DNA of 64,000 nucleotides from Nitrospirota bacterium (lineage in GTDB: Bacteria > Nitrospirota > Thermodesulfovibrionia > Thermodesulfovibrionales > JdFR-88). Positions 1,875-11,158 of the stretch are shown here, piece by piece. The notes under the pieces are model-generated. The model was given only the letters and a program-made list of their open reading frames with translations. It ran no database searches and was not told where the DNA came from. The position numbers were made by a program, and so were the translations under genes. The first letter of the stretch is position 1. Each line of letters opens with the position of its first letter. The stretch lies in assembly GCA_021813405.1 (NCBI GenBank), contig JAKAKS010000031.1, positions 1-64,000 of the forward strand, read 5' to 3'.

Positions 1875-3188
1875 ATGAAAACGCTAGATAAGATTAAAGA
1901 TCGCAGTGCAACCGTTGGCATTATCGGCCTTGGCTACGTCGGGCTTCCATTGGCCATAGAATTTGGAAGGGCGGGGTTCCCGGTAATCGGCTTTGATGTC
2001 GACGCAAGGAAGATAGACGCCCTGGATCAGGGCAAGTCTTACATAAAGCATATACCGCCGGGTGGTATACGTGAGATAAAAAACAAAGGGAACTTCAGGG
2101 CGACGACGGACTTCTCCCTGCTTGGGGAGGCCGACTGCGTTATTATCTGTGTGCCGACCCCTATCAATAGGTACCGTGAGCCCGACCTTACATATGTACT
2201 AAATTCCGCCAGGGCCGTTGCCTCTCGCCTCAGAAAAGGGCAGCTCATTGTTCTGGAGTCAACCACTTATCCCGGCACTACCGATGAGGACATGCGATCG
2301 ATATTGGAGGAAACAGGTTTAAAGGCGGGGCGGGATTTTCACCTTGCCTTCTCCCCGGAAAGGGAGGACCCAAACAACAAGAGCTTTTCTACCAGGACGA
2401 TACCAAAGATAGTGGGTGGGTATACCCAAACGTGTCTCAAGCTGGCCAATGCCCTTTATGGCTCTGTAATAGAAAAAACGGTACCGGTCTCCTCAACTAG
2501 GGTGGCGGAAGCGGCAAAGCTGCTTGAAAACATTTACAGGGCAGTCAACATAGCCCTGGTAAACGAGCTTAAGGTTCTGTTTGACAGAATGGATATAGAT
2601 ATATGCGAGGTCATTGAGGCGGCCAAGACTAAGCCCTTCGGGTTTCAGGCATTTTATCCCGGCCCGGGCCTTGGCGGACATTGCATACCCATAGACCCGT
2701 TCTATCTTACCTGGAAGGCAAGGGCGTATGATTTTCATACCAGGTTTATCGAGCTTGCCGGAGAGGTAAACACCTCGATGCCATATTATGTGGTAGACAG
2801 GATCGTAGAATCTCTTAACAAAAAGGGGAAAAGCATCGTGGGCTCAAGGGTCCTCATACTGGGGCTTGCCTATAAAAAGGACATCGACGACGTGAGGGAG
2901 TCGCCCTCGTTCAAGCTTATAGAACTGCTGAAGATGAAGGGCGCCGTGGTGGACTACAACGATCCCTTCGTTCCCAAGACACTGAAAATGCGAAAGTATA
3001 ATTTTAAAATGAGGTCGGTCCCCATCACGGCGGAGAACCTCAAGCGGTATGATTGCTCTGTCATTGCCACCGACCACTCCTGTTACGACTATGGGTTCAT
3101 AGCTGAAAACTCGCCGCTTCTTGTGGACACGCGCAATGCCACAAGAGAAGTGAAAGCAAGATACAAAAAGAACATAGTTAAAGCATGA
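1875..3188 (+). CDS. UDP-N-acetyl-hexosamine 6-dehydrogenase (WbpA/UDP-sugar dehydrogenase family)
   Basis: A 437-residue NAD-dependent dehydrogenase that should oxidise C6 of a UDP-N-acetyl-hexosamine to the uronic acid for polysaccharide synthesis in the cytoplasm. The N-terminal Rossmann motif GLGYVGLPLA lies near residues 19-28. The catalytic loop GGHCIPIDP places the nucleophilic Cys at residue 270, and the C-terminal part has the second NAD/UDP-binding lobe (VLILGLAYKKDIDD). The IDPFYLTW context favours the WbpA-type subfamily over plain UDP-glucose dehydrogenase, but the substrate is not proven. GGGAGA lies before the ATG. Its stop codon overlaps the exosortase start (ATGA), so the two are translationally coupled, tying polysaccharide synthesis to PEP-CTERM protein sorting. 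Confidence 0.88.
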   Translation: MKTLDKIKDRSATVGIIGLGYVGLPLAIEFGRAGFPVIGFDVDARKIDALDQGKSYIKHIPPGGIREIKNKGNFRATTDFSLLGEADCVIICVPTPINRYREPDLTYVLNSARAVASRLRKGQLIVLESTTYPGTTDEDMRSILEETGLKAGRDFHLAFSPEREDPNNKSFSTRTIPKIVGGYTQTCLKLANALYGSVIEKTVPVSSTRVAEAAKLLENIYRAVNIALVNELKVLFDRMDIDICEVIEAAKTKPFGFQAFYPGPGLGGHCIPIDPFYLTWKARAYDFHTRFIELAGEVNTSMPYYVVDRIVESLNKKGKSIVGSRVLILGLAYKKDIDDVRESPSFKLIELLKMKGAVVDYNDPFVPKTLKMRKYNFKMRSVPITAENLKRYDCSVIATDHSCYDYGFIAENSPLLVDTRNATREVKARYKKNIVKA

Positions 3189-4126
3189 GTGCAGGCGTGT
3201 CTGGGCCGGCAACATCAGGCGAATCTGCACCAGTGTTCCTTTCCGGGCCGAAAAAGATGGTTTCTATCTTGTTGGCCCTTACCGGAGCGGCCATATTTTA
3301 CGGGTCCCTAAAGGAGCTGCTTGAGTTCTCATTTCAGAATGAGAACTATTCGCATATGCCCCTGATTCCCTTTATAAGCGGGTACTTTTTTTGGCGGAAA
3401 AGGCATGAGATATCCTCAAATACAGGGAGTAAATTTAATGTCTTGGGTATACTGGCCCTGCTTTCTGGTGCTGCGGCGTATCTGATAGGTGTGCACAGGG
3501 CAGGCGTTTTTAATGAGAACGATTATCTTTTTTTCATGACGCTGGCGGCGGTCCTCTATTTTTTGGGCTGCTTTGCGCTTCTATTTGGGGTGGCTGCCTT
3601 CAGGGCCGCTGCGTTTCCGTTGCTTTTTCTTTTTTTTATGTTGCCGTTTCCATCTTTTATTCTGAACAAGGCCATATTTTTCCTGCGGGAAGGCTCAACT
3701 TGCGGTGCCAATTTTATATTCAAGATTGCCGGGATACCCTTTTTACACCACGGCTTTACTTTTGATTTCCCTGGGCTCAGCGTCTATGTGGCCCATGAGT
3801 GCAGCGGGATTCGTTCGAGCATCTCGCTTATTATCATGGGCGTGGTAATGGGCCAGATTTTTCTTGCAAGGTGGTCCGGCAGAATCCTCACGCTACTGGT
3901 GGCCGTTCCTCTGGCGATGTTTAAAAATTCGATCCGTATAGCCACGCTTACTATGCTTTCCCTCTATATTGACAGATCATTCATATACGGCAGATTGCAC
4001 AGGGACGGGGGCATCATTTTTTTCCTGATCGGTCTTTCTTTTTTGGGGCTGTTCATCCGTTTTGTAAGAAAATTTGAATGCCGGGGCGCAATGCCGGCTG
4101 AAAAAGCAGAGAAAATTAACAATTAA
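3185..4126 (+). CDS. xrt: Exosortase (EpsH family transpeptidase-like membrane protein)
   Basis: A 313-residue polytopic membrane protein with about eight hydrophobic segments. The exosortase catalytic triad is visible: Cys206 in HECSGIRSS, Arg251 in FKNSIRIATL and His272 in GRLHRDGG. Exosortases are thought to cleave the C-terminal PEP-CTERM signal of exported proteins at the cytoplasmic membrane, probably joining them to a surface carrier; this is family knowledge. There is no fused EpsI domain. The gene overlaps the dehydrogenase by 4 bp. A matching substrate lies 1.4 kb downstream. Confidence 0.9.
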   Translation: MSAGVSGPATSGESAPVFLSGPKKMVSILLALTGAAIFYGSLKELLEFSFQNENYSHMPLIPFISGYFFWRKRHEISSNTGSKFNVLGILALLSGAAAYLIGVHRAGVFNENDYLFFMTLAAVLYFLGCFALLFGVAAFRAAAFPLLFLFFMLPFPSFILNKAIFFLREGSTCGANFIFKIAGIPFLHHGFTFDFPGLSVYVAHECSGIRSSISLIIMGVVMGQIFLARWSGRILTLLVAVPLAMFKNSIRIATLTMLSLYIDRSFIYGRLHRDGGIIFFLIGLSFLGLFIRFVRKFECRGAMPAEKAEKINN

Positions 4127-4219: not shown

Positions 4220-5287
4220 ATGGAAGGAGAAGCTGGATCAAGAGGCATGAGAGCAGATGAAAAAATAACCATGATCAGTAATGGCCATGGCCCTGTGACT
4301 GATGACAAGGCCTCAGGTATGTTCGGGATATTCGGACAATGCGCTCAGATTCAGAAGGTGTTCTCCACTATACGGAAGGTTGGCCCTTCAGACATTTCGG
4401 TGCTGGTGATAGGAGAAAGCGGTACGGGCAAGGAGCTTGTAGCCAGGGCAATACACGCTTTGAGCCTGCGTAATAGCGGCCCTTTCATCTCCATAAACTG
4501 CGGAGCAATCCCGGACAACCTGCTGGAAGCCGAGCTTTTCGGCCACGAAAAAGGGGCTTTTACCGGGGCTCATGTGCAGGTGATGGGCAAAGTTGAGTAT
4601 GCAGATAATGGCACTTTCTTTCTTGATGAAATAGGCGAGCTCCCTTTAAGTCTTCAGGTAAAACTCCTTAGATTTCTTCAGGAGCGCACTATCCAGCGGG
4701 TTGGCGGCAGGGAGGACATACTTGTGAACACAAGGATCATTGCCGCTACCAACGTGGATATAATGAAGGCTGTCAGGGAGAAGACCTTCCGGGAGGACCT
4801 CTATTACAGGCTTGGTGTTATGGTACTGCACCTCCCGCCGCTTAGAGAACGGGGAGAAGATATAATGCTACTGGCAAATATGTTTTTAATGAGGTTTGCC
4901 GAACGAATCGGGAAAAAGGAAAAGGGATTGAGCAAACAGGCCCAGGAATTCATAAATAATTATAAATGGCCGGGCAACATCAGGGAGCTTGAAAACAGGA
5001 TACAAAGAGGGGTCATAATGTCAGAGTCGCCTCTCATTGAAATACATGACCTTGGATTCACTGACGACGAAAGATGTTCAAAGGCGGTTTATATGAGGGG
5101 AGAAACCCTCAAGGCGGTAAAAAACAAAGTAGAAAAGGATTTTGTAATGAATGTTATAGACCGGCACAAGGGAAACATGACAAGGATAGCAGAAGAGCTT
5201 GGCGTAAGCCGTCAGACATTGTACGATCTTATTAAAAAACATGGTATCGCCAGCTACGTAGGCACCCGGACGGTCAGGGAGAGATAG
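4220..5287 (+). CDS. Sigma-54-dependent transcriptional activator without a receiver domain (PrsR-like)
   Basis: This 355-residue enhancer-binding protein has a central AAA+ domain with Walker A GESGTGKE (about residues 64-72), the sigma-54 contact loop GAFTGA (about 112), Walker B FFLDEIGE, the Arg-finger region REDLYYRL and WPGNIRELENR. The Fis-type helix-turn-helix is at the C-terminus (RIAEELGVSRQTLYDL). Its AAA+ sequence resembles the PEP-CTERM-associated regulator PrsR, but the N-terminal ~40 residues are too short for a phospho-receiver, so activity must be set another way. Alternative ATGs at 4250 and 4271 cannot be excluded. It probably drives the sigma-54 promoter of the neighbouring PEP-CTERM gene. 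Confidence 0.88.
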   Translation: MEGEAGSRGMRADEKITMISNGHGPVTDDKASGMFGIFGQCAQIQKVFSTIRKVGPSDISVLVIGESGTGKELVARAIHALSLRNSGPFISINCGAIPDNLLEAELFGHEKGAFTGAHVQVMGKVEYADNGTFFLDEIGELPLSLQVKLLRFLQERTIQRVGGREDILVNTRIIAATNVDIMKAVREKTFREDLYYRLGVMVLHLPPLRERGEDIMLLANMFLMRFAERIGKKEKGLSKQAQEFINNYKWPGNIRELENRIQRGVIMSESPLIEIHDLGFTDDERCSKAVYMRGETLKAVKNKVEKDFVMNVIDRHKGNMTRIAEELGVSRQTLYDLIKKHGIASYVGTRTVRER

Positions 5288-5535: not shown

Positions 5536-6291
5536 ATGAACTGTCGAATAAGATCCGCGGTGATTATCATGTTCGTCCTGGTGTTCATTTTGCCAGTAGC
5601 CCGGGCCTATGCGGATCTGATTGATCCGGCAACGCTTCAGATCGGCAATCCGCCAACGGGAGGGGATCCTAATCTGATATCCTCGGCCTTCGGGATATAC
5701 CAGAATTCCAATTCGCCGGCGAATGCGCTTTACAATCCGCTGCTTCTTATCATAGGCATCCCCAACGTAGATGCGTCAAGCGTCATAGGGGGGTCTTTTC
5801 CGCTGCCGGGCATCAGCGTAAATAACGGTGGCACGGGGCAACTTGGCGGAGCTGATGTTTACGGAGGGAATTGGAATTACGGCGCCGGGTCCCCTTCAGG
5901 GTTCGGAGGTGACATGACGTCGGGAGATGAGATATATTCTTTTCTTGGAATTACAGGGACCGACCACTCCAATTCCTTCACGAATTGGTCTGGCGCAGAT
6001 AAGACATTGGGAATTGATCCTACAGAATTTGCCACATTCGTATTCGAGTTGACAGACACAAACATCAATCTATATCCCAATAAACAGGTTGTAGATGTGA
6101 CATTATCCGGAATCAAGCCCGGTACGCTTGCGGTTGCATATGGACAGGATGCAACTCATTTATATGATACGCCATTTACTCAAGCGGGTATGATAAATAA
6201 GGTGCCTGAGCCTTCCTCTATTTTCCTGCTGGGCAGTGGTGTGCTTGGCTTGGCATTATTATTTTGTTACCGCAGGAGAGAACTGGTTTAA
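5536..6291 (+). CDS. PEP-CTERM sorting-domain surface protein
   Basis: The 251-residue protein has an N-terminal signal peptide ending in ARAYA (about residue 26), a Gly/Asn-rich body, and a C-terminal exosortase signal: VPEP at 223-226, a hydrophobic helix (FLLGSGVLGLALLFC) and the basic tail YRRREL. It should be exported by Sec and processed by the exosortase encoded 1.4 kb upstream. The start is fixed by GGAGG 6 nt before the ATG. It sits alone behind the sigma-54 promoter and is closed by a strong terminator, so it is probably a monocistronic matrix protein. The body matches no enzyme family I recognise. Confidence 0.9.
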   Translation: MNCRIRSAVIIMFVLVFILPVARAYADLIDPATLQIGNPPTGGDPNLISSAFGIYQNSNSPANALYNPLLLIIGIPNVDASSVIGGSFPLPGISVNNGGTGQLGGADVYGGNWNYGAGSPSGFGGDMTSGDEIYSFLGITGTDHSNSFTNWSGADKTLGIDPTEFATFVFELTDTNINLYPNKQVVDVTLSGIKPGTLAVAYGQDATHLYDTPFTQAGMINKVPEPSSIFLLGSGVLGLALLFCYRRRELV

Positions 6292-6320
6292 AACAAAAGC
6301 AAGTGGCATTTTTTGTTATG

Positions 6321-6347
6321 AAAGGGGGCTTTTTGCCCCCTTTTTTT
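6321..6347 (+). terminator. Rho-independent terminator after the PEP-CTERM gene
   Basis: AAAGGGGGC, a TTTTT loop and GCCCCCTTT, followed by a run of T. Confidence 0.9.
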
Positions 6348-6440
6348 ATTTCCTGATGTGACCTGGGTTACATTTTTTTTTGCCGGAAGGTGATAAAACT
6401 TAATAGGTAAGTAGCAAGGCTCTTTGTAAATCAATAGTAC

Positions 6441-6530
6441 GGTCGTTTCCGAAAAGGTAAACCATGGGCAACCATGGGGCACAAAGCCACGGGACCTGAT
6501 ATGGGTCAGCCGGGCTGCCGAAGAAACAGT
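6441..6530 (+). ncRNA. c-di-GMP-I (GEMM) riboswitch aptamer
   Basis: The leader of the large lipoprotein gene carries the GEMM signature: GGTAAACC, a CCATGG-GCAA-CCATGG hairpin with a GNRA tetraloop (6462-6477), then GGCACAAAGCCACGGG, then AGCCGGGCTGCCGAAG. A closing stem can form from GTTTC (6445-6449) and GAAAC (6523-6527). Bases 6535-6552 are complementary to 6452-6469 at 17 of 18 positions, so an alternative fold would destroy the aptamer. GAAACAG (6523-6529) can also pair with CTGTTTC of the downstream terminator. This is a typical ligand-dependent transcription-termination layout; which state is ON cannot be decided by eye. Confidence 0.85.
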
Positions 6531-6559
6531 GCTTGCCCACGGTTTACCTTTTCAGCGTC

Positions 6560-6592
6560 AGGCCTGTTTCCTTTTGGAAACAGGCCTTTTTT
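6560..6592 (+). terminator. Leader terminator (expression platform of the c-di-GMP riboswitch)
   Basis: AGGCCTGTTTCC, loop TTTT and GGAAACAGGCCT form a perfect 12-bp stem followed by T6. It lies between the aptamer and the start codon at 6623, so it can only work as a conditional attenuator of the gene behind it. Confidence 0.88.
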
Positions 6593-6622
6593 ATTGTGAA
6601 ATTTGACGCAGGGAGGTGCGAT

Positions 6623-9541
6623 ATGCGGCAGCGCAGCAGTGAGCGACAGGGGTTAATGGTTGGGAGTAGAGGACGTTTTGAAGTAAGCCGTGTAAGAAAT
6701 TTTCTGGCTGTATTTATTTTGCCGCTTGCCTTAATGGCGTGCGGCAGCAACGGGGGGGGCGCTGCATTTTCCTCCTCACAAACATACAGTGCAGCACAGA
6801 TCAAGACCTCATCTACATTTCCTTCAACCTCCCGCGTTTTTTACATCGATTATGTTAACGGCAAAGATTCCAACAATGGGACATCTGAAAGCACACCCTG
6901 GAAGCACCAGCCATATATGAACGGCTTTACCGGCACGTACACGCACCAGGCCGGGGACATATTCGTATTCAAGGGTGGAGTGAGGTGGGCATGGTCCGCG
7001 GCGGACCCTATATACCCATGGGAAATACAGACTGGTGGTGCATCTGGGAATCCGGACCAGTACACGGTAGATAAAACATGGTATGCAGGGGCTTCCTATA
7101 CCCCCCCAGTATTCGATGGATGCCAGACGGCTGAGGGCCTGAAAGTATGCGGGTTAAACGGGGCCTCAACATTGGGTGAGGGTAGCCAGCTTATTGGCGA
7201 CAACAATGGGCAATATTCCGTTTCTAACATTGTTATTAACGGCCTTCAATTTCAAGATATAGGCAGTCCTGGCGACGGCTCCGGGACAGCAATTAACTTT
7301 CTTGGCAGTGGCAGCTCGATAGAAGTCAAAAATTGTATTATCGCTCCCCATGCCATTCAGGCCTTTGCCTATGCGAACGCAAACAACCAGAAAAATGCCG
7401 ATGCTATTTATTTCCATGATAACCAAATCAGTTATTCCGGGCGTGAAGTGGTTTACGGCTATCAAGGATATACCCTCAATGATGTGGAGATCTATAATAA
7501 CAGAGTAGAAGGCCCAGGGCTTACGCTTGCCAATGATCTCTATGCCGGCCCAAGTAATTATCATATTGATGGGTTCATGGTTGAAAACCCGGGCGTTTCT
7601 ACTACCACTCCGACAATAACTAATGTTCTTTTCTATAACAACCTGTTTTATGGCGCATGGGATTGGTGTACTAGCGAATATTATACGGACGGCGGTGTTC
7701 AAAATCTTTCCATTTACAATAACGTTTTTAGTATAGAGCAAACTGCAACAAATTCAGGCAACCCGCCTATGTATGCTTTCGTAAGGCTGAACCAGAATGA
7801 TTATGGCACGATAAACGTTTACAACAATACATTTTCTACAGATTCTTTAATCGGGAATCCAGGTGTAGAAATTGGTTTCTGGTTCGTTAATCCAGATACT
7901 GCCAAACCAGTGGCCATAAATATCAAAAATAACATTTATTCAGGGGGACTTACCGGCAATAGTTTAGGTACTGCAAGCAACACATGGACATCCTTGAATA
8001 TTGATCACAATCTTTACAATCTGACAACATATCAAGGAGGTAATGGCAACTTAGACCTGCTAAACAACGGCCCTAACTGGACTTCACCTGCACAAGCGTG
8101 TGCCGGTGGCGGGTATGACTGTAATAGCTTTGGTGGCAACGATTATTCAAGCACTTATCCCGGTTTTGTTTCGTTGCCCAATGGAACAGTAGGCAGCGGA
8201 AACTGGCAGGTGCAGGCAGGCTCCCCGGCAATAGGAAGCGGGGCAAATTTAAGCAATATATTTACTTACGATATAACAAATGCCACGCGGCCATCAACGG
8301 GCGGGTGGACCATGGGAGCCTATGAGTACAATGCCAGCCCAACTTCATCCACCACTTATACAGTTACCCCATCGGCAGGCAGCGGCGGCAGCATCAGCCC
8401 TGCAACGCCCCAGACTGTGAGCAGCAACGCGACCACGTCATTCACGGTAACTCCTGCTACGGGTTACAACATCTCTTCCGTAACAGGCTGCGGCGGCACG
8501 TTATCAGGGAATACCTATACTACAGGCCCCGTAACCGCTAATTGCACAGTAACCGCGGCTTTTGCGATAAACACCTATACGGTCACGCCATCAGCGGGCA
8601 GTGGAGGGACGATCAGCCCAGCAACGCCCCAGTCTGTGAATTACGATGCGGCCAAATCATTCACGGTAACTCCTGCTACGGGTTATGGCATCTCTTCCGT
8701 GACAGGTTGCGGCGGCACGTTATCAGGGAATACTTATACTACAGGCCCCGTAACCGCTAATTGCACCGTTACTGCCAGTTTTTCAAGTACCCCAACTGGC
8801 GGTTCTACAGGCGGCACTACAACCACTTATACCGTAACCCCATCAGCGGGCAGCGGCGGCAGCATCAGCCCGTCGACGCCCCAGACGGTGGACAACGATG
8901 CGGCCACGTCATTTACGGTAACTCCTGCTACAGGTTATGGCATCTCTTCCGTCACAGGTTGCGGCGGTTCTTTGTCCGGCAACACATATACTACCGGGCC
9001 AATAACCGCTAATTGCGCCGTTACTGCCAGTTTTTCAAGTACTACGTCCTCTACATCCACATCACCGCAGTTGGTTTCCCCTTCCAATGGGCAGACCACT
9101 TCCACAACTGTAACGTTTACATGGACAAAGCCGGGCAATAAAATTGGGCACTATAAACTGCTCTATTCACAGAATTCCAACTTGAGCAGTTCGTCTACAA
9201 AGCTGATTGCAAGTTCACAACAGAAGCCTTCTGTTTTTGCCGGGCTTGGGATGGGGCTGCTGCCGTTTGGGATTATATTGCCGATGGGCATTATGCTTGC
9301 CGACAAAAAGAAAAGGCTTCTTCTCGTTGCGGCACTTCTCATCGCGGCCGCGGCCCTTTCTTCATGCGGAGCTGGCGGAGGAGCCACACCTGCTGGCGGC
9401 AGCGCTCCCTCAGGCAGCACACAGTCCTACACTGTTTCAGGATTGACCAGCAATACCACTTATTACTGGGCGGTCCAGGCCCTTGATTCAAACGGGCAGG
9501 TAATATCGCAGAGCACTACGGGATATTTTCAGACCCAATAG
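6623..9541 (+). CDS. Large c-di-GMP-controlled beta-helix/repeat lipoprotein with membrane segments inside its last domain
   Basis: I start at ATG 6623 (GGGAGG 6 nt upstream); a longer frame from 6533 would run through the riboswitch terminator. The 972-residue protein has a lipoprotein signal ending LALMAC. A right-handed beta-helix region follows to about residue 570, rich in Asn/Tyr ladders (SIYNNVF, INVYNNTFS). Then come three 69-residue repeats (YTVTPSAGSGG...ANCTVTA.F). The C-terminal fibronectin III-like domain is split: between HYKLLYSQNSNL and the TYYWAVQALDS strands sit about 85 residues with two hydrophobic stretches, a KKKR turn and a lipobox-like ALSSC. A surface matrix or carbohydrate-binding role is inferred from the architecture and riboswitch control. 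Confidence 0.85.
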   Translation: MRQRSSERQGLMVGSRGRFEVSRVRNFLAVFILPLALMACGSNGGGAAFSSSQTYSAAQIKTSSTFPSTSRVFYIDYVNGKDSNNGTSESTPWKHQPYMNGFTGTYTHQAGDIFVFKGGVRWAWSAADPIYPWEIQTGGASGNPDQYTVDKTWYAGASYTPPVFDGCQTAEGLKVCGLNGASTLGEGSQLIGDNNGQYSVSNIVINGLQFQDIGSPGDGSGTAINFLGSGSSIEVKNCIIAPHAIQAFAYANANNQKNADAIYFHDNQISYSGREVVYGYQGYTLNDVEIYNNRVEGPGLTLANDLYAGPSNYHIDGFMVENPGVSTTTPTITNVLFYNNLFYGAWDWCTSEYYTDGGVQNLSIYNNVFSIEQTATNSGNPPMYAFVRLNQNDYGTINVYNNTFSTDSLIGNPGVEIGFWFVNPDTAKPVAINIKNNIYSGGLTGNSLGTASNTWTSLNIDHNLYNLTTYQGGNGNLDLLNNGPNWTSPAQACAGGGYDCNSFGGNDYSSTYPGFVSLPNGTVGSGNWQVQAGSPAIGSGANLSNIFTYDITNATRPSTGGWTMGAYEYNASPTSSTTYTVTPSAGSGGSISPATPQTVSSNATTSFTVTPATGYNISSVTGCGGTLSGNTYTTGPVTANCTVTAAFAINTYTVTPSAGSGGTISPATPQSVNYDAAKSFTVTPATGYGISSVTGCGGTLSGNTYTTGPVTANCTVTASFSSTPTGGSTGGTTTTYTVTPSAGSGGSISPSTPQTVDNDAATSFTVTPATGYGISSVTGCGGSLSGNTYTTGPITANCAVTASFSSTTSSTSTSPQLVSPSNGQTTSTTVTFTWTKPGNKIGHYKLLYSQNSNLSSSSTKLIASSQQKPSVFAGLGMGLLPFGIILPMGIMLADKKKRLLLVAALLIAAAALSSCGAGGGATPAGGSAPSGSTQSYTVSGLTSNTTYYWAVQALDSNGQVISQSTTGYFQTQ
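8091..8208 (+). repeat. Exact 118-bp direct repeat, copy 2
   Basis: Identical to 1-118 and inside the beta-helix part of the large lipoprotein gene. Recombination between the copies would delete the dehydrogenase, exosortase, activator and PEP-CTERM genes and fuse the two beta-helix genes. Confidence 0.95.
8357..9034 (+). repeat. Three tandem 69-residue protein repeats
   Basis: Units at 8357-8563, 8576-8782 and 8828-9034 (207 bp each) encode near-identical Bacterial-repeat/InlB-B-like modules. Each contains one CGG or CGGT and one ANC, giving two conserved Cys that could form a disulfide outside the cell. DNA identity is high, so copy number may vary between strains. Confidence 0.9.
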
Positions 9542-9568: not shown

Positions 9569-9602
9569 TGGCGCGGCCCAGGCCGCGCCACTCTTTTTTA
9601 TT
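9569..9602 (+). terminator. Rho-independent terminator after the large lipoprotein gene
   Basis: TGGCGCGGCC, CA and GGCCGCGCCA form a 10-bp stem followed by CTCTTTTTTATT. The group II intron begins right behind the T-run. Confidence 0.9.
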
Positions 9603-11066
9603 GTGCGCCCGGCACGGGCGCATGCTTGGCGGTGAAAGTCCGCTGCGGGGGTTGATAGCGCCAACCGCTAGCCAAAGGCAAGGGTGTCCACCGTGAGGTG
9701 GAATCTGAAGGAAGCCGGCGGCAAAACTCCGGTCCGAGGAACACGAACCGCATATAAGGCTTATGCAGGCCGGGCGAGTTTGCAATACAAAACGAAGTCC
9801 AAAGCTATCTGAGGTCTGTGGAGTAAATGCGGCGGATATATGGAGTGAAAGTATGCGTTCTTACCCGGGGAGGTCTGGCCGGAACGATGGGGGCGTTGTT
9901 TCAGAACTGGCAATCCTTGCAGCGATGCAAGGCTGAGCGGCCAGAAGTCAGCAGAGGCTATAGTATCCCTCTAGGGAGAAGGGCCGAGCGTAAGGTGTCC
10001 CTAAAGCTTGAGGAGACTAGCGGGCGATATGAAGAAAGCAGAAAATCACGTTCATCGTGACCGGCGCGAGGAAGCAGGAGTGGAACTCCAAGGTAATCGC
10101 GGGGAGCCGAGTATCGCCCCGGCGTTGGCAAGTGGCGGGGACGGGAGCGCAGCGGACATCAGTAAACTGCTTGAGAGAATTCTTCACAGGGACAACCTGA
10201 ACCTTGCCTATAAGAGGGTAAAGAAGAACGGCTCAGCCATGGAATCGATGGGATGCAGGAGGATGAACTTCTGCCCTTCCTTCGGGAACATGGCGAAGCC
10301 ATCAGGCAGGCAATACTGGAAGGGAAGTACCGGCCGCAGCCCGTGCGGAGGGTAGAAATACCTAAACCGGACGGCGGGATAAGGCTGCTTGGGATACCTA
10401 CAGTGCTAGACCGGATGATACAGCAGGCGATAGCGCAGGTATTAACCCCTATGTTCGAGAAGGGCTTTTCCGATTACAGTTACGGTTTCCGGCCCGGACG
10501 CAATGCACACCAAGCCATAAAACAGGCGCAGGCGTACATAGGGGAAGGGTTCAAAACCGTAGTTGATATTGACTTGGAGAAGTTCTTTGCCCGGGTCAAT
10601 CATGACAAGCTGATGGGTCTGCTATCGAAGAGGATAATGGACAAACGGCTGCTCAAGTTGATACGGTTGTACCTTGAAGCGGGGGGCATGATGGGCGGTC
10701 TGGTGTCGCCCACGGACGAAGGCACGCCGCAAGGCGGGCCGCTGAGTCCGTTGCTGTCAAATGTGATGCTTCACGAGCTTGATATGGAACTTGAAAGACG
10801 AGGCCATCGCTTCTGCCGTTATGCCGATGACTGTGCGCCGCAGGCGCACAATGAGGCTTTTTTTTTAAGAGAGCCGCTTTGTGTGGCCCATATCCAATAG
10901 CCCTGTCTTATCCACAACCCTGAACAACAGTCATTTCCGGCGCGCAGGCCTTATCGGGCTTCTTGATGTTTACGGCTCTTATAACTTACGAACCGCCGTA
11001 TGCCGGACGGCACGTACGGTGGTGTGAGAGGACGGCAGGCGAAATAATCACCTGCCTCCTACTCGA
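9603..11066 (+). mobile_element. Degenerate group II intron, probably class C, inserted behind a terminator
   Basis: The 5' end GTGCGCCCGGCACGGGCGC and the following domain I-like sequence (GTGAAAGTCCGCTGCGGGG, CCTAGGGAGAAGGG-type segments) are typical of bacterial group II introns. The 3' end has a domain V-like hairpin around 10990-11030 (GAACCGCCGTATGCC ... ACGTACGGTGGTGTGAG) and ends in CTACTCGATT. Class C introns characteristically insert just after rho-independent terminators, exactly as here. The encoded reverse transcriptase is frameshifted and lacks its maturase end, so it cannot move by itself. The 3' boundary is uncertain by a few bases. Confidence 0.8.
10029..10900 (+). pseudogene. 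Group II intron reverse transcriptase, frameshifted and truncated
   Basis: A first frame from 10029 (MKKAENHVHRD ... LLERILHRDNLNLAYKRVKK) carries the RT-0 region. A one-base shift near 10240 moves the homology into a second frame, with IDGMQEDELLPFL, RRVEIPKPDGGIRLLGIP, YGFRPGRNAHQAI, DIDLEKFFARVNHD, GTPQGGPLSPLLSN and the catalytic YADD near 10825-10836. Homology stops right after YADDC. The maturase (X) and DNA-binding domains are missing and are replaced by an unrelated hairpin GTGCGCC-GCA-GGCGCAC plus an eight-T run. No functional protein is expected. Confidence 0.85.
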
Positions 11067-11158
11067 TTCTGAATTTTAATTGCCAGAACCGTATAGTAGG
11101 GAGAGGATATAAAGCCCTCATCGTGGCCCTTTAACTGTTGGCACTTTCTAAACATTGT

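Follow-up and report, generated by a model that had tools for sequence, protein, structure and literature searches.

The leader preceding a 972-aa lipoprotein gene in the window (the whole 64,000-nucleotide stretch of DNA analysed here, from an uncultured Nitrospirota bacterium) is probably a transcription-attenuating c-di-GMP-I riboswitch of that large surface-lipoprotein gene, with the ligand most likely turning the gene OFF. It is a member of a conserved leader family, whose core is a pairing platform between strand A of the aptamer's P1 helix and the terminator (A:T). The assignment would place large secreted proteins under c-di-GMP control in a phylum with little genetics. The leader elements, the lipoprotein gene and the genes described upstream of it lie on the + strand.

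Aptamer, expected ligand and downstream gene

The c-di-GMP-I (GEMM-I) aptamer spans 6447–6523 and is recognised by two Rfam models. The covariance search proposed along with the original prediction gives a match to RF01051 (c-di-GMP-I) at 6446–6522 that is well past the gathering cut-off, with 66.7 bits against 35. In the scan of the window, RF03167 (c-di-GMP-I-GGC) matches 6447–6523 with 65.4 bits (gathering 59, E 3.4e-13). All GEMM hallmarks that had been claimed, namely a GNRA-capped hairpin, AAACC, CACAAAGCCACGGG and AGCCGGGCTGCCGAAG, are found in the window; the P2 hairpin CCATGG-GCAA-CCATGG occupies 6462–6477, its GCAA loop being the GNRA cap, which would dock into P3.

The pocket letters, read from the sequence and the RF03167 alignment, are G at 6456, A within CACAAAG and C at 6518. 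We take these to be G20, A47 (in CAC-A-AAG) and C92 in the Vc2 numbering. At the A47 position the RF03167 consensus has G where the window has A (CGC-G-AAG vs CAC-A-AAG). As we take this G to be the GGC signature, the window aptamer appears to lack it. The letter A20, found in cGAMP-binding GEMM-Ib aptamers, is also absent, 6456 being G. The usage of A20 and G20 in PMC6456294 and PMC9262584 agrees with our numbering.

Given this canonical G20/A47/C92 set and the 14 GGDEF domains in the same genome, c-di-GMP is the expected ligand. It is very improbable that the aptamer binds another cyclic dinucleotide such as 3',3'-cGAMP, even though a variant class ranks first among the Rfam models matching the window and cGAMP riboswitches were originally annotated as c-di-GMP riboswitches (PMC9262584): the window has G20, A47 and C92, and A20 occurs in a few other elements of relatives. 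An A20G change converts a cGAMP riboswitch into a c-di-GMP riboswitch (PMC6456294), G20 being described in PMC9262584 as a selectivity factor and not a hard filter. The A20 (cGAMP-type) GEMM-I elements of relatives include G003:C36:201582-201659 and G023:C3:92268-92343.

Downstream of the leader, a Shine-Dalgarno sequence, AGGGAGGTG (6610–6618), precedes the lipoprotein gene (6623–9541), which starts with ATG at 6623. Its product has an N-terminal lipobox-like LMAC, internal repeats and a choice-of-anchor Q match (NF041518, 27 bits vs cut-off 25); a partial match to NF058595 ('lipo-invert', NCBIfam) stays below its cut-off (22.2 vs 37 bits). A C-terminal tail is common to the window protein and four relatives. 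In it, two hydrophobic stretches flank KKKR or a similar run and are followed by a lipobox; in the alignment with paralogues these elements interrupt an fn3-like region. In the window protein, an internal lipobox, LSSC, follows two hydrophobic stretches; paralogues without an N-terminal lipobox-like motif have the internal lipobox too. An AlphaFold model made with six sequences has a mean pLDDT of 36.8, so that the beta-helix is a matter of family matches only. The protein had been described as a beta-helix/repeat lipoprotein: it has the repeats and the choice-of-anchor Q match, and a paralogue has a Beta_helix match, but the model confidence is too low to show a beta-helix.

The expected exosortase neighbourhood is there, as a PEP-CTERM locus. 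It contains the exosortase (3185–4126; PF09721, 166 bits), a sigma-54 activator resembling PEP-CTERM response regulators but devoid of a receiver domain (4220–5287; TIGR02915, 451.6 bits vs cut-off 502.6, profile 135–444 only) and a PEP-CTERM protein (5536–6291; PF07589), with a terminator-like site of its own behind it (6320–6345). Gene order is partly retained at the ortholog locus L079, where regulator, PEP-CTERM proteins, riboswitch and lipoprotein follow one another as in the window. The ortholog of the sigma-54 activator (L079:111-1523) keeps its receiver domain; none is visible just upstream of 4220–5287. On the other side, the lipoprotein gene is followed by a terminator-like hairpin and, immediately beyond this, by a group II intron at about 9600–11070 (D1-D4 and gpII matches), whose reverse transcriptase frame (10253–10900) is truncated.

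A pairing platform shared with relatives

Four strands make up the platform in the window. P (GUUUC, 6445–6449) is the 5' side of P1 and has its partner GAAAC at 6523–6527. Strand A (GAAACAG-U-GCUUG, 6523–6535) provides both the 3' side of P1 and the 5' side of the antiterminator. Strand T (CAGGCCUGUUUCC, 6559–6571) is at once the 3' side of the antiterminator and the 5' arm of the terminator, which is completed by strand H (GGAAACAGGCCU with the U tract, 6576–6594). The predicted 12-bp leader terminator is found at 6560–6587, with 12 pairs (7 G-C) and then a T run. GAAACAG (6523–6529) pairs with CTGTTTC (6564–6570) in the terminator arm, as had been proposed; after a one-base bulge, the A:T helix goes on with GCTTG (6531–6535) and CAGGC (6559–6563), for a duplex energy of −14.3 kcal/mol, among the best of its family. 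The terminator T:H thus excludes the antiterminator A:T, whose A strand belongs to P1, as in a transcriptional riboswitch.

A further segment, S (6535–6553), is an anti-aptamer. The 17-of-18 complementarity claimed for 6452–6469 is real and extends to 18 of 19 pairs for 6451–6469, at −29.6 kcal/mol (shuffled-spacer mean −8.6, with 0 of 500 shuffles as good).

We searched 40 relatives and scanned named genomes for a DNA pattern (TTTCCGAAAAGGTAAAC, then CGNAGAAAC 50–80 nt further). The scan returned 25 stretches from Nitrospirae, Nitrospirota, Nitrospiraceae, Thermodesulfovibrionia, Thermodesulfovibrionales and Nitrospira japonica, with one exception from Desulfobacterales. After deduplication there are 29 distinct platform elements, mostly from Nitrospirota, which are mutually related and have the search-pattern letters in common. 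Most of them show, in order, GUUUC (P), the aptamer, GAAACAG-(C/U)-GCUU (A), AAGCCUGUUUC (T), GAAACAGGCUU (H) and U's. Strand A nearly repeats H but has one additional base, so that the A:T helix imitates the T:H stem of the terminator with a bulge.

The A:T helix is kept among relatives through compensatory changes. Across 24 distinct A/T pairs, 86.1% of cells are paired, against 31–53% when the strands are slid, and the covariation score is 0.191 (shuffles 0.131 ± 0.016, 0 of 500 reaching it), with segments selected by pairing energy, a choice that biases toward paired cells. The constancy of P and of GAAAC is uninformative on P:A pairing, as both are fixed in the search pattern for most relatives. 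The anti-aptamer reaches p ≤ 0.02 in about half of the 29 elements, the window's copy being the strongest. A permutation test (p 0.12) led us to reject the idea that S pairs with its own P2 across the family. A:T as a terminator in its own right was also rejected: just one paralogue has a long T run immediately behind strand T. In the translational relatives L071, L077 and L081, an anti-Shine-Dalgarno segment sits inside the A:T hairpin, and L016 has a segment like it; the longest exact Shine-Dalgarno complement found by script has 11 letters, in L071. One hairpin would thereby be common to the transcriptional and translational versions of the platform.

Six GEMM-I elements were found in the window's own genome. 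Two of them, on contig C35, have the window-type platform, each before a paralogue of the window lipoprotein; others precede PAS-HD and GGDEF genes (C34) and a histidine kinase (C17), and one lies at C4:134730. A second GEMM-I type (G000:C34:41548 and G000:C4:134730, with similar ones in relatives) has an aptamer segment CGAAAAGGC complementary to GCCTTTTCG, the latter located in the 5' arm and loop of the terminator. The proteins encoded behind the platform are for the most part large and either secreted or lipid-anchored: fn3/MopE-repeat proteins, subtilases, a glycosyl hydrolase 18, golvesin-like and Calx-beta proteins, a sortilin/BNR-repeat protein, DUF4382 lipoproteins and beta-helix-like proteins.

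Probable direction of control

In the mechanism that we propose, a promoter with a CRP-like site would give a transcript carrying a boxA-like site, the aptamer and a three-strand decision. Strand A would pair either with P, forming aptamer P1, or with T, forming the antiterminator; T could alternatively pair with H as the terminator. With c-di-GMP bound, P:A would be held and T left free, so that the terminator forms and the gene is OFF. With c-di-GMP absent, A:T would occupy T long enough for read-through. The boxA-like site may recruit Nus factors, which would shield RNA polymerase or raise its speed on these long mRNAs.

OFF is the likeliest logic for the family, and we hold it with higher confidence than for the window member. 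It follows from the translational relatives, where P1 formation would break A:T, free the anti-Shine-Dalgarno segment and close the start site, and from the strand logic of the OFF-switch Cd1 (PMC9262584). In nested ensembles computed before H is transcribed, A:T is dominant in most of the 29 elements (0.99 in the near-ortholog G007:C102).

For the window member, modelling leaves three outcomes: OFF, ON and a mostly constitutive attenuator. The original prediction had built one switch from both alternative pairings. Both exist, but as nested folds they are mutually exclusive and carry opposite logics: in the absence of ligand, the 17-of-18 pairing frees the terminator and the GAAACAG pairing blocks it. 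Before H, the window ensemble is wholly anti-aptamer, with a P(A:T) of 0.00 in nested folding, a class of energy models that disregards tertiary contacts, ligand energy, pseudoknots and transcription kinetics. The complete anti-aptamer (6451–6469 with 6535–6553), by excluding A:T, predicts termination without ligand. This would fit an ON-switch, a doubtful yet serious possibility, in which ligand-free S invades the aptamer over 18 bp and frees T for the terminator, while a c-di-GMP-held aptamer blocks S, lets A:T displace the weak P1 extension via the toehold AG-U-GCUUG and so allows read-through. The predicted global minimum is indeed anti-aptamer plus terminator (−78.0 kcal/mol, vs −60.3 for aptamer plus terminator), and at the pre-H stage with P2 and P3 held, A:T beats P1 (−48.9 vs −35.5). 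That c-di-GMP commonly favours surface proteins also counts toward ON control. So does the behaviour of the Geobacter cGAMP relatives, which are ON-switches (PMC6456294, PMC9262584). However, S is not universal, with about half of the 29 elements below the p value given above and no significant specificity for its own partner; the translational relatives have OFF logic; and a ligand-stabilised P1 takes the same strand as A:T.

The switch may instead have drifted, in its own genome, into a mostly constitutive attenuator on which c-di-GMP makes little difference, since T would be free both through the ligand-free anti-aptamer and through ligand-bound P1. We regard this as quite unlikely, the P, A, T, H and pocket letters being intact and the A:T duplex energy so high in the family ranking, although the inner stem of the window's A:T hairpin has just 3 bp, its anti-aptamer is complete and its barrier from A:T to T:H, estimated by a crude path search, is the lowest of six tested (5.3 kcal/mol, vs 6.4–8.6 in five relatives). 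Overall, we put OFF control of the window member at a little better than even.

Sites upstream of the aptamer and known systems

A boxA-like site, GCTCTTTGT, lies at 6419–6427 (+ strand). The form (G/C)(A/T/C)TCTTTG(A/T) recurs near the aptamer: 15 of 30 type-A leaders have it, where shuffles over 200 nt average 0.35. With A additionally allowed at one position, 16 of the 30 have it no more than 60 nt away (−18 to −32), and of 47 other GEMM-I leaders from relatives none does. This recurring motif resembles the boxA consensus of rRNA antitermination. In the genome itself, a 16S leader carries CGTTCTTTGAAAAGC some 65 nt ahead of the 16S match; a second 16S copy and, judged by sequence, a 23S leader have GTTCTTTGAAA, and two relatives carry TGTTCTTTGA. 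The window site equals its own rRNA boxA, GTTCTTTGA, at 7 of 9 letters; several relatives' leaders match it exactly. A terminator was detected by script in 15 of 16 leaders with boxA and in 8 of 14 without it (Fisher p 0.03).

Further upstream, at 6357–6372, the sequence contains a CRP-like palindrome, TGTGACCTGGGTTACA, to which no strand is assigned. Such sites, TGTGA-N6-TCACA or close to it, are enriched among type-A leaders, a strict form occurring in 14 of 30 (shuffle mean 0.17). The window and L079 have a looser form, which in L079 is TGTGATAGGAGTTACA at an equal distance. A CRP-family gene (L012:11059-11778) adjoins the riboswitch pair of C35. A sigma-70 consensus scan found no promoter. 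A sigma-54 promoter before the aptamer, considered on account of the PrsR-like activator nearby, was rejected for lack of a good match.

As many family leaders carry boxA-like and CRP-like sites beside the riboswitch, several regulators appear to converge on genes for big secreted proteins. A bolder and rather unlikely reading is that a boxA-loaded Nus complex and the c-di-GMP riboswitch act on the same RNA polymerase in a clade-wide composite leader. The Nus complex would then set elongation speed, RNA folding or termination resistance at the decision point, and a second messenger and the ribosome-synthesis machinery would jointly gate giant surface proteins. The leader family also suggests that boxA, mainly associated with rRNA so far, precedes riboswitches. 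In the open-licence literature we found no paper linking boxA to a c-di-GMP riboswitch, nor any combining 'c-di-GMP riboswitch' with 'Nitrospirae'. It is unlikely that the boxA-like and CRP-like motifs are due to chance or irrelevant to the switch. Such a reading could draw on the 57 occurrences of GHTCTTTGAAA in the genome (4 for the reversed control), many of which belong to an intergenic element that is dispersed through the genome and unconnected with the riboswitch, and on the two letters by which the window copy deviates from the rRNA boxA; the tight spacing to the aptamer and the 16 of 30 against 0 of 47 leaders argue against it, as do the shuffles, made for the slightly narrower motif.

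The dispersed element itself occurs in many copies among these 57 places of the genome (G000), for example L096, L103, L106, L110, L120 and L124. It consists of a promoter-like TGGACA...TATAAA, a GGGG-CCCC hairpin, the boxA-like GCTCTTTGAAA and repeated TTGAACA or ATGGAACA, and often adjoins gene 3' ends, with the boxA-like motif at about position 1500 of the loci named or near the contig start. Rfam matches were seen in 0 of 11 copies.

Among known systems, the RF01051 riboswitches are like the window element in fold, GNRA-capped P2 and pocket letters; the window adds to them the clade-specific platform, with its bulged near-copy of a terminator arm, and the upstream boxA-like site. Its overall sequence and structure are also those of RF03167, whose consensus differs by G at the one pocket position. 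The boxA of rRNA and suhB leaders (PMC5725501) is likewise near the leader start, whereas the window site precedes a surface-protein riboswitch, a case for which we found no example in the open-licence literature. The Geobacter GEMM-Ib cGAMP ON-switches, as described in PMC6456294 and PMC9262584, have a similar aptamer, surface-protein targets and control by terminators, but they carry A20, and the pilM terminator uses the aptamer's own 3' strand and so excludes the aptamer, whereas in the window a separate terminator follows. The c-di-GMP-I OFF-switch Cd1 of Clostridioides difficile has the same P, A, T and H strands and the same logic as proposed here; the excerpts of PMC9262584 describe for Cd1 neither a boxA nor an anti-aptamer as strong as that of the window.
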